DNA of 35,514 bases. Source: an uncultured bacterium (GTDB lineage Bacteria > Auribacterota > Erginobacteria > Erginobacterales > Erginobacteraceae). The stretch spans positions 1 to 35,514 of the forward strand of contig CAKZYZ010000027.1 of assembly GCA_937885075.1 (NCBI GenBank). Reading direction: 5' to 3'. How positions within the stretch are numbered: the stretch's first letter is position 1; the number at the start of each line of letters is the position of its first letter. The translations under genes and the position numbers were made by a program. This document shows positions 3,371 through 35,514 of the stretch, piece after piece. Under the pieces are notes generated by a model that had not been told where the DNA came from, did no database searches, and saw nothing but the letters and a program-made list of their open reading frames with translations.

Positions 3371-5350
3371 CTATTTCGTCACTGGAAGATCAGAACCACC
3401 GCCGAAGTAAGCCCGGGTAACACCCTTGATGGCCCAGAGACCGGTTTCCGGCCGGAAGATGCCGGTTTTTTCAAGGGCGCTGCCGGTGAAATTCCCGGTG
3501 ACCGGGATGTCCCCCCTGCCGCCGAAATAGGAACGATCCCCGTTACGGATCGCCCAGAGGCCGGTGGAACCGCGGAAGATAGCGATCTCCGCCGCCCACT
3601 GATTCTGGCCTCCGTACCAGGTATAATCACCCGGCACCGGGGTATCGCCGCTTGTGCCGAAATAGGCCCGGGTGACACCCCGGATCGCCCAGAGTCCGCT
3701 GGCGGGACGGAAGATACCGGGATCAGTTACTCCGTCTCCGGTGTAATCGGCCGGGATTGGCATATCGTCGGTCGTGCCGAAATAGGCCCGGGTCAGATCC
3801 CGGACCGCCCAGAGGCCGGTGCTCTTCCCGAAGACGGCTATATCACAGGAACCGTCGCCGTTGTAGTCCCCCGGGACCGGCATCTGATCCGCCCCCCCGA
3901 AATAGACCCGGGTAATCTCCTTAATCGCCCAGAGGCCGGTAGCGGGCCGAAAGATTGAGACATCGGCATAGCCATCCCCGTTATAATCGCCGGAGACCGG
4001 GATATCACCCGCACCGCCGAAGTAAACCCGCCCTAACCCCCGGACCGCCCAGAGACCGCTCTCGGGCCGGAAGATGGCCAGGTCGGATTCGCCATCGCCG
4101 GTATAATCTCCGGAGGAGATTACCATATATGCCGGTGTCGGCGCCGGTGACGGCGTTGGAGATGGAAAGGCGTAAGAGAAGACCGCCCCGTAATCTAACT
4201 CCCCTCCAGACATGGTTGTCCCGTAGAGAGTGTTATTCTCAAAGAGGAGAGTACACCAGGGGGAGTTTCCATCGCCGGTCTGAGCGCTGAAATCATGGAG
4301 GATGGTATATCCGCTGCCGTCATTATTCAGGGCAAATAGAACTCCTCCACCTCCGTATGGCATCCCCCCGCCCCCGTAGAGGGTTGTCCCGTAGAGCCGG
4401 CTCCCATCGGAGACCAGGGATGCCACCGGCATCATGCCGTCGCCGGTAAAAGAGGAAAAACTATGGATGTTCGTGTAATCTGATCCGTCGATATTCACGG
4501 AGAAGATCGTGCCGTAAGAGTTGGGACCTCCGAAGGTGGTGGTTCCATAGAGGCGGGTGCTGTCGGAGAGCAGTCCGCCGACCACGAATGTCCCATCTCC
4601 GGTCTGAATTCCGAACTGATGAAGGAGGGTATAGCCGCTGCCGTCAGGACTCATTGAATACAATACTCCGCCGCTGGGACCGGAAGTAACCCAGGTAAAA
4701 GCAGTCGTCCCGTATAATGACCCGGCTTCAGCGATAACATTTGAATAAGGGAGATAACCATCCCCGGCAAAATCAGGGAAGCTATGCAGAACCATACTGG
4801 AAGACCCGTTAAAATCAAGGGAGAAGACAGTCCCTCCACCGACAGTCCCTCCGTTTGAAGTTGTCCCGTAGAGCGTTGAGCCAAGACTGATCAGACCGGA
4901 CTGGGGCATCATACCGTCACCGGTATAGGCGGAAAATGAGTGGATGTCCAGATAACCGCTTCCGTCAGTCTCCAGGGAGAAGACCGTTCCATAGGAATTG
5001 GAACCATAGTAGGAAGCCGTCCCGTAGAGAGTACTCCCGTCCGAGATGATGCTCCCCTTCGGGCCGGCCGCGCCGTCACTCTGGGCGGAGAACTCCCGCA
5101 GAACCGAGTAACCTGACCCATCAGGGTTGATGGAGAATATAGTACCGTAGTCATTGGTGCCCCCGTACGTTGTCGTGCCGTAAAGAGCACTCCCATCCGA
5201 GACCAACCCACCCTGGGAACTGGATCCATCGCTGTTAGTCTGCCCGCCGAAGCTGTGCAGAATTGTGTAACCGGACTGAGCCATCCCGGCGGAGAGGCAG
5301 GCTACGGAAAAAGCCAAAACTATCGCCAGAGAAACAATTCTCTTCATCAT
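3371..5350 (-). CDS. Secreted protein: seven GloVer repeats plus six-repeat FG-GAP-like C-terminal module
   Basis: A 659-residue exported protein. Residues 1-24 form a signal peptide (VSLAIVLAFSVACLSAG). About residues 27-400 hold seven repeats of the GloVer (Gloeobacter/Verrucomicrobia, TIGR03803-like) type. Each reads like 'LHSFS...GDG..P..GLISDGSTLYGTT..GG...GTVFSL', with seven heads from LHSFGGQ to LHDFSAQ, which suggests a seven-bladed propeller. A short Pro/Thr linker (PSPTPSPAPTP) follows. Residues about 415-659 are six 40-residue repeats, [31 protein letters not shown], shared with four other proteins here. The DYNGDG loops look like calcium sites. Start ATG has AAGGAG eight bases upstream and a good promoter. 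Probably extracellular; catalytic residues are not evident. Confidence 0.88.
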   Translation of the reverse strand: MMKRIVSLAIVLAFSVACLSAGMAQSGYTILHSFGGQTNSDGSSSQGGLVSDGSALYGTTTYGGTNDYGTIFSINPDGSGYSVLREFSAQSDGAAGPKGSIISDGSTLYGTASYYGSNSYGTVFSLETDGSGYLDIHSFSAYTGDGMMPQSGLISLGSTLYGTTSNGGTVGGGTVFSLDFNGSSSMVLHSFPDFAGDGYLPYSNVIAEAGSLYGTTAFTWVTSGPSGGVLYSMSPDGSGYTLLHQFGIQTGDGTFVVGGLLSDSTRLYGTTTFGGPNSYGTIFSVNIDGSDYTNIHSFSSFTGDGMMPVASLVSDGSRLYGTTLYGGGGMPYGGGGVLFALNNDGSGYTILHDFSAQTGDGNSPWCTLLFENNTLYGTTMSGGELDYGAVFSYAFPSPTPSPAPTPAYMVISSGDYTGDGESDLAIFRPESGLWAVRGLGRVYFGGAGDIPVSGDYNGDGYADVSIFRPATGLWAIKEITRVYFGGADQMPVPGDYNGDGSCDIAVFGKSTGLWAVRDLTRAYFGTTDDMPIPADYTGDGVTDPGIFRPASGLWAIRGVTRAYFGTSGDTPVPGDYTWYGGQNQWAAEIAIFRGSTGLWAIRNGDRSYFGGRGDIPVTGNFTGSALEKTGIFRPETGLWAIKGVTRAYFGGGSDLPVTK

Positions 5351-7794: not shown

Positions 7795-7963
7795 TTTCAG
7801 TGAACCCCGTCAACCCGTACTCATGGCCCGGTGCTGTAGCCGCGGTCGGTGACCGCGGAATTGTCGGTAGCCATCGTTGTCCGCGGTCACCGACCGCGGC
7901 TACAGGACGAAATGGTCTCCAACAAATTGTGAGTAACCATTAAGACAATTGGGTTCACTGAAA
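7795..7963. mobile_element. 169 bp MITE-like element with TTTCAGTGAACCC inverted ends
   Basis: Perfect 13 bp inverted ends (TTTCAGTGAACCC at 7795-7807, GGGTTCACTGAAA at 7951-7963) enclose two CCGCGGTC-nnn-GACCGCGG palindromes (7840-7858 and 7881-7899). Those two palindromes are themselves in opposite orientations, giving a nested inverted repeat. Other elements here have the same ends but a different core. It contains no reading frame. Confidence 0.85.
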
Positions 7964-10443: not shown

Positions 10444-10462
10444 CCGCGGTCAGCGACCGCGG
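10444..10462 (-). repeat. CCGCGGTC palindrome, solitary copy
   Basis: CCGCGGTC-agc-GACCGCGG followed by CTACA, i.e. the minus orientation of the GTAG-CCGCGG unit, in the 110 bp between two convergent genes. It is followed by GGATATT-rich word repeats and the phrase CACTCCCTACTCCCCAT. Confidence 0.8.
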
Positions 10463-10525
10463 CTACAATGTCCTTGTCCATTGGATATTTCTTGTTGGAT
10501 ATTGGATATTCTGTCTTTCCACTCC

Positions 10526-13460: not shown

Positions 13461-15155
13461 TCAACGAGGGAGCGGGAGATCGCCGGAGTTACCAAAATAT
13501 ACCCGGGTTATACCCCGGATGCCCCAGAGACCGGAGGCCGGACGGAAGATTCCGATGGAGTTAAGGAGTTTGCCGGAGTAGTCCGCCCCGACCGGGAGGT
13601 CATCCGATGATCCGAAATAGGCCCGGGTAGCGTCACGGACCGCCCAGAGACCGGAGGCCGGTCGGAAAATTCCGGCCTCCCAGGTTCCGTTCCAGTCATA
13701 ATCCCCCGGGACCGGGCTGTCACCCGCCGCTCCGAAATATATCCGGCTGATATTCCTCATTGCCCAGAGGCCGGAGGAAGGCCGGAAGACGGCGATGTCT
13801 TTTTCTCCGCTCCCGGCATAATTACCGGGGACCGGACTGTCTCCGCTGCTCCCAAAATATACCCGGGTTACCCCCCGGATAGCCCAGAGGCCGGTTGAGG
13901 GACGAAATAGAGCGATATCCGCCGAACCATCGCCATCGTAATCTCCCGGAACCGCCTGATCCGACGGACCACCGAAGTAGGCCCGGGTAACTCCCCGGAT
14001 CGCCCAGAGGCCGGAGCCTTTACGGAAGATCCCTCCGTCGGAAGTCCCATCGCCGTTAAAATCCCCGCAGACGGGACTGTCGTCCGATCCCCCGAAATAA
14101 TACCGGCTGACCCCCCGGATCGCCCAGAGGCCGGTCGCGGGCCGGAAGAGTGCGACATCGGAACTGCCGTCACCATTAAAGTCGGCCGGAACCGTCTGAA
14201 GCAACCGTTCTATGTAATTGGTCACCAGAATTACCGGTTCGGCGGTGGCGGTGGAAAAAGCCGCTATCTCGGAAGCGTGGTTATATTCATCCAGATAATC
14301 CCCGTATGAAGTCAGATTAAGAGATCGCAGTTTTGCCAAAAGTTCCTGACACTGATCAGCCAGAGAGGGAAGTTCTCCCTGGCAATAGAGCGCGTAGATT
14401 GGAGGGAAAACTACTCCGGCCTGTATCTTGGTGGAGGGGGAAGCATTATCGAGTTCTGATTGGTTATTAAAACAACCCCCGTGAAAAGTAGGATTAAGAA
14501 TAGGGCAGTAATAAATTTTATCAAGATTTTTTAAATCATAAGGGGGGCTCATCGCCACCACACCTTTTATACCTGACCGGAGAGATTGATAGCTGGGATC
14601 TACCGCCAGCATCAGGGCCAGATGAGCACCGGCAGACTGACCGAAGTCAAAGATATTATTCGGATCGCCTCCGTTATCCGCGATATGATTAACCGTCCAG
14701 TAATAGGCATCAGCCACATCTTCAATATTGTCCGGCCACCAAGCGGCTTTCTCTGTGGTGCCGGCCAGGGTGACTTCATTAGCAGTAAGCCGGTAGTCAA
14801 TCACCACCGTAACCCACCCCTTATCCCCGGTCAGGGAGAGGGCCATATAGCTATAATGATCCCGATAGCCGGTAGTCCAGCCGCCGCCATGAATGAAGAA
14901 GACCACCGGCTGATTATTAAGAAGCACTCCTCCATCAGCGGCCCGAAAGATACTTAGCGCCCGGGCCTCATAGTTTTGCTTGCCATCCCGGCTGTCGTCT
15001 ATTAAAAAACTATCACCATAGACATAGTCCTTCCGATAAATAGAATATCGGGTATTTACTTCGGTCCAGGTCTGTTCCCCCCAATCCGCCGGCGCCGAAT
15101 TAACCAGAGAGATTGGCATAAAAAGAAGGGTGAGACTGATTATTATAGTTTTCAT
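13461..15155 (-). CDS. Secreted alpha/beta-hydrolase esterase with six-repeat C-terminal module
   Basis: A 564-residue exported protein with signal peptide 1-20 (ISLTLLFMPISLVNSAPA). Residues about 60-310 form an alpha/beta-hydrolase of the carboxylesterase/BD-FAE type. The oxyanion motif HGGGW is at 89-93, the nucleophile Ser174 lies in FGQSAGAHLA, the probable acid is Asp267 (LPSLADQ), and the probable His is His293 (EYNHASEI). These enzymes hydrolyse acyl esters, often side groups on polysaccharides. After a short junction, residues about 322-564 are six 40-residue repeats such as DYDGDGSADIALFRPSTGLW, the same block found in four other proteins here. Repeats 5 and 6 have degenerate calcium loops. 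There is no Pro/Thr linker, unlike its relatives. No ribosome-binding site is evident. Probably surface-bound or extracellular. Confidence 0.88.
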   Translation of the reverse strand: MKTIIISLTLLFMPISLVNSAPADWGEQTWTEVNTRYSIYRKDYVYGDSFLIDDSRDGKQNYEARALSIFRAADGGVLLNNQPVVFFIHGGGWTTGYRDHYSYMALSLTGDKGWVTVVIDYRLTANEVTLAGTTEKAAWWPDNIEDVADAYYWTVNHIADNGGDPNNIFDFGQSAGAHLALMLAVDPSYQSLRSGIKGVVAMSPPYDLKNLDKIYYCPILNPTFHGGCFNNQSELDNASPSTKIQAGVVFPPIYALYCQGELPSLADQCQELLAKLRSLNLTSYGDYLDEYNHASEIAAFSTATAEPVILVTNYIERLLQTVPADFNGDGSSDVALFRPATGLWAIRGVSRYYFGGSDDSPVCGDFNGDGTSDGGIFRKGSGLWAIRGVTRAYFGGPSDQAVPGDYDGDGSADIALFRPSTGLWAIRGVTRVYFGSSGDSPVPGNYAGSGEKDIAVFRPSSGLWAMRNISRIYFGAAGDSPVPGDYDWNGTWEAGIFRPASGLWAVRDATRAYFGSSDDLPVGADYSGKLLNSIGIFRPASGLWGIRGITRVYFGNSGDLPLPR

Positions 15156-16593: not shown

Positions 16594-16700
16594 ATAACCT
16601 CTAAGGAAAGCAGGAAGGCAGGAGGGGGAGTGTTTTGTGTTTTCCTGCTTTCATGCTTTCCTTAGAGGTAAAGTTGCCCGAGCGAAGTGAACGCAATGTT
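16594..16700 (+). repeat. 107 bp palindromic repeat, copy 1
   Basis: Internally inverted: CTAAGGAAAGCAGGAAGGCA near one end and TTTCATGCTTTCCTTAG near the other. It continues into AAGTTGCCCGAGCGAAGTGA. An almost identical copy in inverted orientation lies at 19334-19440. Both copies sit just upstream of a gene in the same relative direction. Confidence 0.9.
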
Positions 16701-18247: not shown

Positions 18248-19381
18248 TTAATCAGGGCGGGAAAAAATAAGATGGTTGGCCGTGATGGAGGAGATAAAAT
18301 TTACGGCTATAGCGCCGGTAAGCAAAAATAAACCTGGCTGTATTTTGGTGGAAATCAGCGCGTCCCCCTCGATTAGGAATACCAGCAGGGCCAATCCGAA
18401 GACATCCAGCATGGACCAGTGCGAGAGAAATCCCACTAATGCCTCTCCCCTCTTCCGGTGTACCGGATTAAATTTACCGAACCAGATCACCATTGACGCG
18501 GAAGCGGAAAGAAGCGGAAAGATAATTAGAAAGAACAGGACAACCAGAGACAGTAGCCAGGTTGCCGGGGCAAAGAGGGCTATAAAAGAGCGAAAAATAC
18601 TGTAGGTATGGCTCGACAATAAGAACTGGGAGATCTGAAGGAAGGGGATATCGATAGCGGCGATTAAAGTAGCGACCGAAAGCAGCATAAGTCCGGGGAT
18701 GATAAATCTCCGCCAACCGTTAAGCTCCGATAATCTTTTTTTAGTTAACCGAAGCGCGGCGGTGCGCGGCAATATATCGGGGTAGAGAAGCTTGTTGATG
18801 AATTCAGCAACTGCCAGACTGAGTATAATCGCGGCGAGAAAGAAATATATCCCGCTGAGCGGGGTTGTACTGATAAAGGTCTGATGATCGGTTAGAACCA
18901 GAATAATAATAACCACGAAGACATCGAGCAGTGACCATTTCCCTAAAGGTTTTACTTTCTTGAGGAGCCGCTTCCGTTCTTTGATCGAGGTACTGACAAA
19001 CCAGATATAACTTAGAACGCTAATCTTTACGAATGGGAAGATAATCGAAAAGCCCAGGATGAGCAGGGCTATGGCATAAAGCCGGGCATGCCACATCAAG
19101 GCTACCGAGTGGGGAAGACTGTATATCTTCTCGGATGAGAGGAATGTGTCTATCTTCAGGAACGGGACTATCAGAGCGATTACGTTAAAAACAAAGGAGA
19201 CCAGCAGCAGCCACGGAATCAGCTTAGTCCGCCCGGCAGAACCCAAGGAGAGAGTCCCCGGCTGGTTCAGCCTTGACCGGATCAGAACAAATATATTCTG
19301 GTTCACAGTCATGTTGTAGTCATTGTTAAAAAGAACATCGCCCTCACTTAGCTCGGGCAACTTTACCTCTAAGGAAAGCAT
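18248..19381 (-). CDS. PqiA-like (paraquat-inducible protein A family) duplicated membrane protein
   Basis: A 377-residue polytopic membrane protein with about eight hydrophobic helices arranged as two PqiA-type halves. Half 1 has NVIALIVPFLKI, IIFPFVKISVLSYIWF and LGKWSLLDVFVVIIILVL. Half 2 has IAAIDIPFLQI, LIIFPLLSASASMVIWF and SHWSMLDVFGLALLVFLI. The repeated 'W-S-[ML]-L-D-V-F' signature is diagnostic. PqiA works with the MCE proteins PqiB/PqiC in inner-to-outer membrane lipid transport; no MCE gene is in this window. The N-terminal zinc-binding cysteines of E. coli PqiA are absent. The first residues (LSLEVKLPELSEGDV) are encoded by a dispersed repeat, so the true start may be a later ATG, e.g. 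at 19312. Confidence 0.82.
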   Translation of the reverse strand: MLSLEVKLPELSEGDVLFNNDYNMTVNQNIFVLIRSRLNQPGTLSLGSAGRTKLIPWLLLVSFVFNVIALIVPFLKIDTFLSSEKIYSLPHSVALMWHARLYAIALLILGFSIIFPFVKISVLSYIWFVSTSIKERKRLLKKVKPLGKWSLLDVFVVIIILVLTDHQTFISTTPLSGIYFFLAAIILSLAVAEFINKLLYPDILPRTAALRLTKKRLSELNGWRRFIIPGLMLLSVATLIAAIDIPFLQISQFLLSSHTYSIFRSFIALFAPATWLLSLVVLFFLIIFPLLSASASMVIWFGKFNPVHRKRGEALVGFLSHWSMLDVFGLALLVFLIEGDALISTKIQPGLFLLTGAIAVNFISSITANHLIFSRPD

Positions 19382-19440
19382 GAAAGCAGGAAAATTTTAA
19401 ATACTCCCCCTCCTGCCTTCCTGCTTTCCTTAGGGGTTAT
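19334..19440 (-). repeat. 107 bp palindromic repeat, copy 2, overlapping two genes
   Basis: Inverted copy of 16594-16700. It encodes the last residues and stop codon of gatB (YNP and TAA) at one end and the putative first codons of the PqiA-like gene at the other, so it fills the whole gap between them. Confidence 0.9.
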
Positions 19441-30024: not shown

Positions 30025-31416
30025 CTATTCCTCATTAGATAGACCTGACTTAACCACCGGAATATCTCCAATTGTACCAAAATAAACTCTGCTTAATCCT
30101 CTGATTGCCCAGAGTCCGGATCTTTCGCGGAAGATGGCGATCTCAGAAGTTCCCGTGCCCCGGTAATCGGATGGGACCGGTTCATCAGTGCTTGACCCAA
30201 AATACACCCTGGTTACTCCCCGGATCACCCACAAACCGGAACCTGGACGGAAGATCCCGATCACGGAGGTTCCGTTCCCCTGATAATCGGAGGAGACCGG
30301 GATATCGGAGAGTCCTCCGAAATAACCCCGGGTAACTCCCCGAATCGCCCACAATCCGGAAGCAGCGCGGAAGATCGCCGGGTCGGCCGAACCGTCACCG
30401 TTATAATCTCCAGGCACCGGCTCATCATTCACCCCCCCGAAGTAGGCCCGGGTAACTCCCCGAATCGCCCAGAGGCCGGAGGTCCCCCGGAAGATTCCGA
30501 TATCACATGAGCCGTCTCCGTTATAATCAGCCGGTTCGGGTTCATCACCGGCACCTCCATAGTAAACCCTGGTTAATCCCCGGATCGCCCATAATCCGGA
30601 AGCAGCGCGGAAGATCGCGATATCGTAAGTTCCATCGCCATTATAATCTCCCCGAACCGGCCAATCCCCTCCCCCTCCGAAATATACCCTGGTAGCGTTC
30701 CTGATCGCCCAGAGCCCGCTGCCCGGCCGAAAGATCCCGACCTCCACCGGTCTCGGGGTTGGGCTGAATTGAGGTGTCGAAGTGCGAACCGGGCTCAGAG
30801 TTGGGCTGGGAGAAGGAGGGGTTGGCTGTATCATGGTCGGAGTCGGGGCAATTGAAGGTGTTGGCGATGCGGTCGCTGACGGTATGGGAGATGGCGTGGG
30901 GGTACTAGGCAAATCGATGGCTAGGTCACGCTCGATCGCGAACGTACCGGCTTCAAAGTTTAAGGTGGGATCGGCCGCGAACTCACCAACCCGGACAGTA
31001 ATATAAATCCGATAAAAGATAGTAGCCCCAGTAACCAAACCTTCAGAGAGCTCCCCAGGTGAATCAGGGTCGTCCCCAAAGATATTGAGTGCGTAAGCAT
31101 GATCATCCGCCATCTGCTGGGTAATCCCGATCACACCAACCAAGATATCATCCGTACCGTTATTCCAGAACGCACCTGTCTCATCTCCTACTTCCGGAAT
31201 ATAATTATTATAATAACCATCCACGGATGTGAAATACCCGCCGGTAGCCATCATCTTAAGTTGAGTCGGACTGCCGGTATTGGGAACCGCATTATAATGC
31301 CCCTCGAAGTAGCCTGGAGAAGGAGTAGGAACCGGAGTCGGCGTGATCTGGCCCATGGCAGCGGTAGCCGGGAGTAAAAACACAGAAATAATTAATGAGA
31401 GTGAAATATCTTTCAT
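30025..31416 (-). CDS. Secreted protein of unknown N-terminal fold with six-repeat C-terminal module
   Basis: A 463-residue exported protein with signal peptide 1-21 (LIISVFLLPATAAMGQ). A short Thr/Pro spacer follows, then an unrecognised domain of about 125 residues (37-165) with GDETGAFWNNGTDDILVGVI and DDHAYALNIFGDDPDSPGEL, which looks beta-rich. A long Pro/Thr/Ser linker (about 172-225) leads to six 40-residue repeats (about 227-456), e.g. DYNGDGSADPAIFRAASGLW. Repeat 1 lacks its calcium loop, starting at EVGIFRPGSG. A short acidic tail SGLSNEE follows the last repeat. Same C-terminal block as its four relatives. Probably displayed outside the cell; no catalytic motif seen. Confidence 0.85.
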   Translation of the reverse strand: MKDISLSLIISVFLLPATAAMGQITPTPVPTPSPGYFEGHYNAVPNTGSPTQLKMMATGGYFTSVDGYYNNYIPEVGDETGAFWNNGTDDILVGVIGITQQMADDHAYALNIFGDDPDSPGELSEGLVTGATIFYRIYITVRVGEFAADPTLNFEAGTFAIERDLAIDLPSTPTPSPIPSATASPTPSIAPTPTMIQPTPPSPSPTLSPVRTSTPQFSPTPRPVEVGIFRPGSGLWAIRNATRVYFGGGGDWPVRGDYNGDGTYDIAIFRAASGLWAIRGLTRVYYGGAGDEPEPADYNGDGSCDIGIFRGTSGLWAIRGVTRAYFGGVNDEPVPGDYNGDGSADPAIFRAASGLWAIRGVTRGYFGGLSDIPVSSDYQGNGTSVIGIFRPGSGLWVIRGVTRVYFGSSTDEPVPSDYRGTGTSEIAIFRERSGLWAIRGLSRVYFGTIGDIPVVKSGLSNEE

Positions 31417-32441: not shown

Positions 32442-34595
32442 TTACTTCGTAACCGGTATATCCCCCTCCGAACCAAAATAAACCCTGGTTGCTCCTCTAA
32501 TCGCCCATAGCCCTGAATCCTCCCGGAAGATGGCTAAACCGGAAGTTCCATCCCCGGTATAATCCGCCGGTTCCGGACGATCCCGGCAACTGCCGTAATA
32601 AGCCCGGGTCATGCCTCGAATAGCCCAGAGACCGGTACAGGGACGGTAAATGCCGATATCCGCGGTCCCATCTCCGCTATAATCCGCGGTAGCCGGACGA
32701 TCACCCTCGCCGCCAAAGTAAACCCGGGTCACCCCCTGGATCGCCCAGAGGCCGGAAGACGACCGGAAAAACGCGATTTGAATACCGCCATCACCTCGAT
32801 AATCCCCGGCTACCGGCCAATCGTCAACCCCACCGAAATATATTCTGGTCCGGCCCCGAATCGCCCAGAGACCGGAAGCCTCCCGGAAGATCGCGATATC
32901 CGCTCTCCCGTCGCTGTCATAATCGCCGGGGATCGGGATATCTCCATATCGGCCGAAGTAGGACGGATCGGAACCCCAGACCGCCCAGAGACCGGATGAT
33001 GGTCGAAAGATCGCCATATCAGTACTTCCGTTTCCATCATAGTCCGCCGGAACCGGCAGATCGGAGTTTCCCCCGAAATATAACCGGGTTATATCCCGGA
33101 CCGCCCAGAACCCCGAGAGTCCCCGATAAATAGCGATATCGACCGTCCCGTCACCGTTATAGTCTCCCGAACCGATAGAGTACATTTCCGGCGAAATAGT
33201 CGGACCGCAGGTGGGCGTCGGAGTAACGGTAACCGTCGGACTCGCCGTAGAACCGGGAGTCGCGGTAATCCGTGGTGATGGTGTCGGACTGACCGTAGCT
33301 GAAACAGTTAAACTGGGACTGGGAGACGGCGGCGGCGAAAGAGTCGGGGATGGGGTTGGCTCTGGAGTTGGAGTCCGTGAAGGAACAACCGTGGGAGTAA
33401 CGGTTAGAGTCGGCGCGGGCGTAGGAGGAGAAGTCGGAGTCACGGAGAAAGTAGGCGTGGGCGACGGGATTACCGGCGATGGCGCTACGGCTGTAGCGGT
33501 CGGTGTGGCGCTCGGGGACGGGGCAGGAGTTGAGGTTGGAGTCGGAGTGATTGATGGAGATGGAGAACTTGATGGGGTCGGAGTGGGAACCGGTGTTGGG
33601 GTGGAATATACCAGATACGCGGCCTCACAGGCCACCCGGGCGGATGTATATCGGATCCGCATGTAACCACTCTCCCCCCAGCTATCCCCCCAGGAATTTC
33701 GGAGAATCCAGCATCCTCCCCCTCCTTCCGGAGGTGTATCATCCCAACCTACCAGGGCGATGATATGGTCGGTAGGGGTCTCATAGCAGGGATAAGAACC
33801 ACAGGTTGTTTTTAAGTCCTCATAAACTCCGCTGCTGTAGGCGGAAAAGGCACCAATGGACACTACCGCGGCATCAACCACCCCATAGGTCATAATCGCG
33901 GTCTTGATCGCGGTAACGTCATTACAGGAGATCCTATGCCATGAGGAGAAGGCCGTGGTCTGATCGCCCCAGTGGGTACACCCCGGATCGCCCTCCACAT
34001 AGGGGAAGTCGGCCTCATTCGCCACCCCTTCAACAGTCAGAGCGGTGAGTTCCGCGTAATCATAATCGGACCCCTTACAGCCGAAGAAATGGGGGTTATA
34101 CGCCGCCAGCCTCCCCAGGCACCAGATGATGTATGACTCCGAGAAATCGACGCAGTTCCCGTCATAAAGCCCCATGGCAAAGTTGTAAGTCCCTTCGGCC
34201 GAAGCGCAGGCGCCAAAGGCGTAACAGGAGCCGCAGCCTCCCTGATCGCGGATCGGTCCGATGTAAGAGTGGCCATTGTAATCCCGCCAATCAAACTCTT
34301 CCGGAGGGTCAACCGTCCCCAATCGTCCGGCCAGAGGACCAATCCCGGTGGTCTGAACTGATCTGCGGGGAACAGTAGAAGCATGGCGGCTGAAAAAACG
34401 GCTCTTCTCTTCCGGAGTAAGAGAGAATATCGGGTTATCGCTTACGGTAAAGTCATACCCGTTATGGTCGATCTTGTACCGAATCTCCTCCAGCGTATCG
34501 TCCGGCTGAAAAGGGAGAATACTCTCCGGCGAGGCAGCAAAAGCGGTCAGGGTAAAAATAAAAAAGATGATTGTTGTGAGGACAAGATTTTTCAT
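32442..34595 (-). CDS. Secreted papain-family (C1A) cysteine protease with six-repeat C-terminal module
   Basis: A 717-residue exported protein with signal peptide 1-20 ([18 protein letters not shown]). A short propeptide-like segment (about 30-95) precedes the C1A peptidase domain (about 98-330). Gln118 and catalytic Cys124 lie in [16 protein letters not shown], His277 in [12 protein letters not shown], and Asn300 in [15 protein letters not shown]. All papain active-site residues are present, with many cysteines for disulfides. A Pro/Thr/Ser linker of about 140 residues ([16 protein letters not shown]...) follows. Residues about 475-717 are the six 40-residue repeats, e.g. [20 protein letters not shown]. 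The linker's DNA is repetitive. The protease should act outside the cytoplasm, tethered by a flexible linker to the repeat block. Confidence 0.93.
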
Positions 34596-34718: not shown

Positions 34719-35514
34719 TTACTTTGCTCTTATCGGAATATCGTTTAAAGTTCCAAAATATATCCGGGTCACGCCCCGGATAGCCCAGAGGCCTGATGCC
34801 TCCCGGAAGATCCCGATTGAATCGGTATTATTGCCGATATAATCACCCGGAACGGGTCTATCCGAACCACCCCCGAAATATGACCTGGTCACGCCCCGGA
34901 CTGCCCAGAGACCGGAGGACGGTCGGAAGATCCCGACCGACCATTGACCGTTACTACCATAATCCCCCGGAACAGTCTCGTCAGTGGAAGACCCGAAATA
35001 TATCCGGGTCACACCCCGGATAGCCCAGAGTCCGGATGAACCGCGGAAGATCCCGATATTTCTGTTCTCATCTCCGGCGTAGTAACCGGAGACCGGTATA
35101 TCGCCAGTTCCCCCAAAATAAGCCCGGGTTACCCCACGAACCGCCCAGAGGCCCGATGCCTCCCGAAAGATCCCGATATCCGAGGTCCCGTCTCCATTGT
35201 AATCTCCCGGTGCGGGAAAGTCGGTATCACCACCGAAATAGGAACGGGAGACTCCCCGGACCGCCCAGAGACCGGATGATCCCCGGAAGATCGCGATATC
35301 GGAAGTTCCATTGCCGTCATAATCTCCCGTGACCGGCTGGTCGTCATAGCCTCCGAAATAGGCCCTGGGTATTCCCCGGACAGCCCCGAGGCCCGATGTC
35401 TCCCGAAACATCGCGATAGCCGGGGTCCCATCTCCATTAAAATCCGGGTTGGGGAGGGGGGGGGTGGGGGTGGGGAATGGGGGCGCCGGAGGCCGGGCGG
35501 TTGGCACCGAAGTG
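34719..35514 (-). CDS. Six-repeat C-terminal module protein, N-terminus missing
   Basis: The frame is open to the contig end, so the start listed in the ORF track (GTG in the linker) is not real. About 20 residues of a Pro/Thr-rich linker (RPPAPPFPTPTPPLPNP) remain, then six full 40-residue repeats from DFNGDGTPAIAMFRETSGLG to [20 protein letters not shown], ending NDIPIRAK. As in the relatives, repeats 5 and 6 have degenerate loops. Repeat 1 is unusual: GLGAVRGIPRAYFG lacks the Trp of GLWAVRG. The missing N-terminal domain would be the fifth cargo type. The C-run in the linker probably broke the assembly. Confidence 0.85.
   Translation of the reverse strand, partial: TSVPTARPPAPPFPTPTPPLPNPDFNGDGTPAIAMFRETSGLGAVRGIPRAYFGGYDDQPVTGDYDGNGTSDIAIFRGSSGLWAVRGVSRSYFGGDTDFPAPGDYNGDGTSDIGIFREASGLWAVRGVTRAYFGGTGDIPVSGYYAGDENRNIGIFRGSSGLWAIRGVTRIYFGSSTDETVPGDYGSNGQWSVGIFRPSSGLWAVRGVTRSYFGGGSDRPVPGDYIGNNTDSIGIFREASGLWAIRGVTRIYFGTLNDIPIRAK

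Follow-up and report, generated by a model that had tools for sequence, protein, structure and literature searches.

A C-terminal six-unit block with position-specific units, predicted to form a closed beta-propeller, on diverse secreted proteins of an uncultured Erginobacteraceae bacterium

Five minus-strand proteins (A-E) encoded in the analysed window (35,514 nt; contig 27 in a draft genome of 4.4 Mb) each end in a block of six short repeats, as identified by translation and segmentation. The question raised by this locus is whether such a block is built by repeats multiplying within each protein or, as the original prediction proposed, evolves as one domain in which unit n resembles unit n of the other proteins. 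The features concerned are as follows.

3374..4117, minus strand: protein A, C-terminal block of six units (translation and segmentation; FG-GAP PF01839, 42 bits)
3998-4117, 3878-3997 and 3758-3877, minus strand: protein A, units 1-3
3638-3757, minus strand: protein A, unit 4
3503-3637, minus strand: protein A, unit 5 (45 aa, Trp loop)
3374-3502, minus strand: protein A, unit 6, including the tail VTK
4118..5350, minus strand: protein A, N-terminal part, with a signal-like start, seven GloVer repeats and then a Pro/Thr linker (NCBIfam TIGR03803, E 1.5e-60, seven stretches)
13464..14192, minus strand: protein B, C-terminal block of six units (unit 1, 14073-14192; unit 6, 13464-13592; segmentation and AlphaFold)
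14193..15155, minus strand: protein B, N-terminal part, an alpha/beta-hydrolase esterase (BD-FAE; PF20434, E 6e-18)
30028..30777, minus strand: protein C, block of six units with a longer C-terminal tail (segmentation and AlphaFold)
30778..31416, minus strand: protein C, N-terminal part, a secreted domain plus Pro/Thr/Ser linker (no family above cut-off)
32445..33173, minus strand: protein D, block of six units, units 5 and 6 near-canonical (segmentation)
33174..34595, minus strand: protein D, N-terminal part, a papain-family cysteine protease with a long Pro/Thr linker (PF00112, E 1.3e-41)
34722..35453, minus strand: protein E, block of six units; the gene runs past the contig end and the partner domain lies outside (segmentation)

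Units in the window are spaced at 40 aa, the sole exception being unit 5 of protein A. Matches to PF01839 exceed the 22.1-bit cut-off in proteins A, B, D and E, and protein C remains below it (15.3 bits). The five blocks are 58% identical among themselves and 59% identical to those in the rest of the genome, so local tandem duplication is rejected as their origin. Dispersed palindromic intergenic repeats (1944-1995, 7809-7908 and 10444-10467; e.g. TGTAGCCGCGGTC..GACCGCGG) and a 107-nt inverted pair (16594-16700 with 19334-19440) also occur in the window, and possibly represent a small mobile repeat family.

Each unit comprises strand A (PVPGDY), a DxNGDG loop, and strands B (DIAIFR), C (GLWAIR) and D (TRVYFG). 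The body GLWAIRG.TR.YFG is conserved across every unit, strand D ends in the consensus YFG at all six positions, no GW motif is found in loop DA', and the last unit is followed by a short, nearly invariant tail, DIPVTR/K. Loops differ by position, as counted in 69 non-redundant blocks (414 units) from the window's own genome: all three putative calcium ligands (D, D/N, D) are present in 87, 70 and 83% of units 1, 2 and 3, and in 39, 41 and 16% of units 4, 5 and 6. Trp is found in 25/69 unit-5 loops and in 0-7/69 at the other positions, and long insertions gather at the step from unit 4 to unit 5 (~48 aa in six copies). The sequences originally singled out in the window (DYTWYGGQNQW, DYDWNGTWEAG and DYGSNGQWSVG at unit 5; NFTGSALEKTG, DYSGKLLNSIG and DYIGNNTDSIG at unit 6) are all present at those positions. 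Early units were expected to keep the loop and units 5 and 6 to be always off-consensus; decay is real and strongest at unit 6, and units 1-3 mostly retain the loop, but the break falls after unit 3, not unit 4, and 'always' is too strong. Strictly canonical loops are found genome-wide in 26/69 copies of unit 4 (one of five in the window), 22/69 of unit 5 and 5/69 of unit 6, and in protein D the loops of units 5 and 6 (DYSGDGTAD and DYTGDGTSG) deviate from the motif at the third residue only. Calcium sites had been predicted in the first blades only; the putative loops lie mainly, though not exclusively, in units 1-3.

A tree of the 30 window units did not reveal grouping by position, the signal being at chance level (20 changes for position labels vs 19.9 under the null; 20 for protein labels vs 18.8 expected; nearest neighbour at the same position in 27% of cases, null mean 17%, null maximum 43%). 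In the genome-wide tree of 414 units, position labels require 147 changes, compared with 267 on average after shuffling (minimum 254), and protein labels 374 vs 378 expected, so that units resemble their counterparts at the same position in other proteins and do not cluster by protein. The nearest neighbour outside the unit's own protein lies at the same position in 52% of cases for the 69 blocks (17% by chance, null maximum 22%); with 112 blocks from the family the share is 57% (17% by chance). A nearest neighbour inside the same protein was found in only 2% of cases. When blocks were aligned to each other with circular shift, register 0 was best in 1322/2346 pairs. The same-position signal resides mostly in the D-loop columns (48%) and less in the unit body (31%).

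The proposal that the whole block evolves as one domain, with no recent internal tandem expansion, is borne out by two further results. From one protein to the next, the two halves of the block vary together (Mantel r 0.35; null maximum 0.22), and none of 1035 within-protein unit pairs from the 69 blocks reaches at least 90% identity, which rules out recent amplification of units. Together these indicate that the block has been inherited as one piece and is old, without recent expansion. An internal 3+3 duplication was also considered, and has left no trace (lag-3 score 115.7 vs 116).

AlphaFold models, built with 113 natural sequences, predict that the six units fold into a closed six-bladed beta-propeller, in agreement with the closed toroid originally suggested. 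The model of block B (mabf777a97be6; pLDDT 95, pTM 0.90) is all-beta and six-fold, and that of block C (m31299646b841) has pLDDT 93 and pTM 0.87. Closure is read from strand assignments. Unit 1 of protein C lacks any D-loop and begins at strand B, the next strand; in the block C model the first strand is lengthened to seven residues (12-18) and the tail turns into a strand of six (240-245), which is what pairing of the two ends, with the tail completing blade 1, would produce.

For both models the best Foldseek match is UmbA4 (E 6.5e-7 and 5e-6; identity 14-17%, a moderate TM-score of 0.63-0.67), of the Streptomyces umbrella particle, which falls within the VCBS/FG-GAP propeller supercluster and whose C-terminal six-bladed propeller is a lectin binding a cell-wall polymer (PMC13274773). 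Next are VCBS/FG-GAP propellers, including PVL-type and GlcNAc-binding fungal lectins. The viral structure library gave no match at E 0.001 or better, and a PDB sequence search with the family profile gave none. By fold similarity to lectins, glycan binding would be the most likely activity of the block. Protein-binding propellers of integrin, BBSome and KICSTOR are on the list too, and these, with the GLWAIRG.TR.YFG body kept in every unit, would suit an integrin-like protein-protein scaffold or protective cap through which every cargo protein attaches to the same surface protein. Lectins, however, provide the best structural match and several of those ranked after it, and we regard such a scaffold as unlikely.

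Searching the window's own genome with a profile of the five blocks gave 117 matches, ~60 of them full length. Relatives of the same family have 35-70 matches each, three other genomes of the phylum 2-3 weak matches each, and the remaining ones none. Blocks 55-67% identical are found in Ca. Euphemobacter frigidus and Ca. Erginobacter occultus, both members of the phylum Auribacterota (PMC12057145), and in a PVC bacterium. The window's own genome comes from the Auribacterota family to which Ca. Euphemobacter and Ca. Erginobacter belong. Most loci were fetched and segmented with the unit profile, and counts were made on closed ORFs of the window's own genome (n=87): 66 carry six units, a single one carries twelve, and the other 20 carry between one and five. 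'Exactly six units' is thus correct for the five window proteins, with rare exceptions genome-wide (1-5 or 12 units); twelve-unit proteins, in this genome and in relatives, consist of two six-unit blocks with a 15-16 aa spacer between them.

The block is C-terminal in 59 of the 66 intact six-unit proteins, with exactly three residues past the last unit in 50/66. The final residue is Lys or Arg in 57/65 C-terminal blocks vs 21/106 control ORFs, and a hydrophobic N-terminus is present in 59/66 six-unit proteins vs 59/132 controls. Partners of the C-terminal block are diverse secreted proteins and include a protease, an esterase, a phosphatase and other propellers. One single 4283-residue ORF (L170:585-13433), a giant secreted protein with DUF7901 in the scanned part, ends in a six-unit block.

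This nearly invariant position, the fixed three-residue tail with Lys/Arg last and the very diverse cargo might also be read as a C-terminal sorting signal for a dedicated secretion or anchoring machine (type IX-like) that recognises the PVTR end. Such a signal seems distinctly unlikely: the genome has no match to Por_Secre_tail (TIGR04183), which was matched in control genomes, and ring closure alone accounts for the last strand. A full block is moreover N-terminal in L153 (GH114 domain) and L181 (GH5 domain), so the block is not strictly a C-terminal tag. A search of the genome for SprA_N gave no match, and the control genomes gave none either.

Many short fragments finish in the last unit and terminate in PVTR, PVAR or PVGR (L197:5013-5412, L169:7424-7754 and L215:1107-1581 (strand offsets); L244, L248). 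In some of them unit 1 is fused straight onto the end of unit 6, and they resemble remnants of recombination or collapsed assembly. The draft genome also contains sequencing adaptor contamination, seen as adaptor-like translated sequence (FFFFKQKTAYEIYQCDWSSDVCSSDL, IGRASCRERV, RSEEHTSELQS) where contigs end (L173:1-717; C-termini of L203 and L217). That the block has no shared function, and is a mobile, easily recombined stable domain spreading by gene fusion in a repeat-rich lineage, would fit the many remnants ending in the last unit and the continuous amplification and decay known for beta-propellers (PMC9218822), but is improbable: dozens of divergent copies (~59% pairwise identity) from four genomes have retained the intact register of six, the placement and the tail, which points to selection.

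The reading we favour, and consider probable, is that of an asymmetric closed six-bladed VCBS/FG-GAP propeller, inherited as a unit and serving as a shared C-terminal binding module on secreted proteins. Each unit would supply strands A-D plus a putative calcium loop to one blade, and the C-terminal tail DIPVTR/K would begin strand A of blade 1, thereby closing the ring. The ring would be asymmetric, with the calcium loop kept in blades 1-3 and largely lost or rebuilt in blades 4-6, blade 5 often carrying a Trp loop. The block may have been shuffled as a unit and added at the C-terminal end of dozens of secreted proteins unrelated to one another, where it would hold its cargo on a cell-surface or matrix glycan. 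Calcium binding, glycan binding and the attachment role are functions that we infer for it. Folds of this kind are known, but finding one as a standard C-terminal addition on ~70 proteins of one genome is unusual.

Shorter versions are also present. Two-unit versions sit directly after the signal peptide (L212, L213, L215 and L183 in the window's own genome; L233, L234, L243, L229 and L262 in relatives), and 7/12, from four genomes, are located upstream of fibre-type regions: collagen (L212), YadA head (L234, weakly L183), S74 chaperone (L262) and tail-fibre profiles (L213, L243, weakly L233). The rest of the 12 precede Lcl_C (L236), a lamin tail domain (L229) or, in three cases, regions without a family. 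Three-unit N-terminal versions mostly precede Lcl_C (DUF1566; L159, L208, L209, L226, L238, L260, L261), and copies with one, two and four units exist as well (L220, L236). Two units per chain in a trimer would give six blades (3 x 2), and trimerisation of the two-unit forms into a six-blade ring is possible by analogy with the lectin RSL. A strict rule that unit numbers are divisors of six is weakened by proteins with four units (L236, intact) and five (L233), and by the three-unit Lcl_C fusions, for which a trimer, as formed by the Legionella Lcl domain (PMC11162425), would give nine blades. Completion of the ring by oligomerisation is therefore a lead, not a result. A broader proposal, in which the block is a common currency of lineage-specific surface display, usually ending in PVTR, so that every protein bearing the ring would be retained at the cell surface, and two-unit fibres complete the same ring by trimerising, is tentative and rather doubtful.

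With ~70 paralogues in one genome, the block offers a view of how a symmetric ring acquires position-specific units at a constant copy number of six, and a natural test set for the idea that propellers arise by amplification of single blades followed by divergence. If it is a surface-attachment module, it would account for where dozens of secreted enzymes of an uncultured phylum are located. From the two-unit forms on trimeric fibres, a clear-cut prediction follows, namely ring completion through oligomerisation. A precedent for this is RSL of Ralstonia solanacearum, in which a trimer of two-bladed chains makes one six-bladed propeller (PMC10306066), as proposed for the two-unit fibre proteins; RSL is absent among the listed Foldseek hits and no sequence relation was found, and oligomerisation of the two-unit proteins is putative.

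Loci of Acidobacteria, Chloroflexi and several Actinobacteria have comparable blocks, mostly of exactly six units (40-45 aa each) and usually C-terminal with a short tail. Singulisphaera (ten units) and Kribbella (seven) are among the exceptions, and register is kept in 272/378 pairs of Acidobacteria blocks. Units of the latter are mostly 44-45 aa with consensus TGTWYILRS, compared with 40 aa in the window, and carry the trace of 3+3 duplication (lag-3 135 vs 120) that is absent here. The Acidobacteria loci L106-L141 (e.g. L110) have a three-unit period in which units 2 and 5 are most alike. The C-terminal VCBS block of six units is thus widespread, though apparently without a name, and the window block is a compact form specific to its lineage.

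Likeness to VCBS/FG-GAP (PF13517, PF01839) lies in the DxDxDG loop between strands A and B and in the predicted propeller, and PF01839 matches over cut-off in four of the five window proteins, as in the VCBS/FG-GAP supercluster, whose defining motifs have been described (PMC8023676). GW, the sugar-pocket motif of PVL and tachylectin, is replaced here by YFG; as none of the supercluster motifs is universal, its absence does not bar membership (PMC8023676). PVL, integrin alpha, TcB and AUDH are seven-bladed (PMC8023676), whereas the block has six compact 40-aa units. UmbA4 (PDB 9oee) belongs to a toxin particle, while no toxin partner is known for the block here, and its calcium loops are reported to be conserved across blades (PMC13274773), whereas here they are mostly kept only in blades 1-3. 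UmbA4 and the block as predicted share six blades, a C-terminal propeller on a secreted multidomain protein and the positions of the putative calcium loops.
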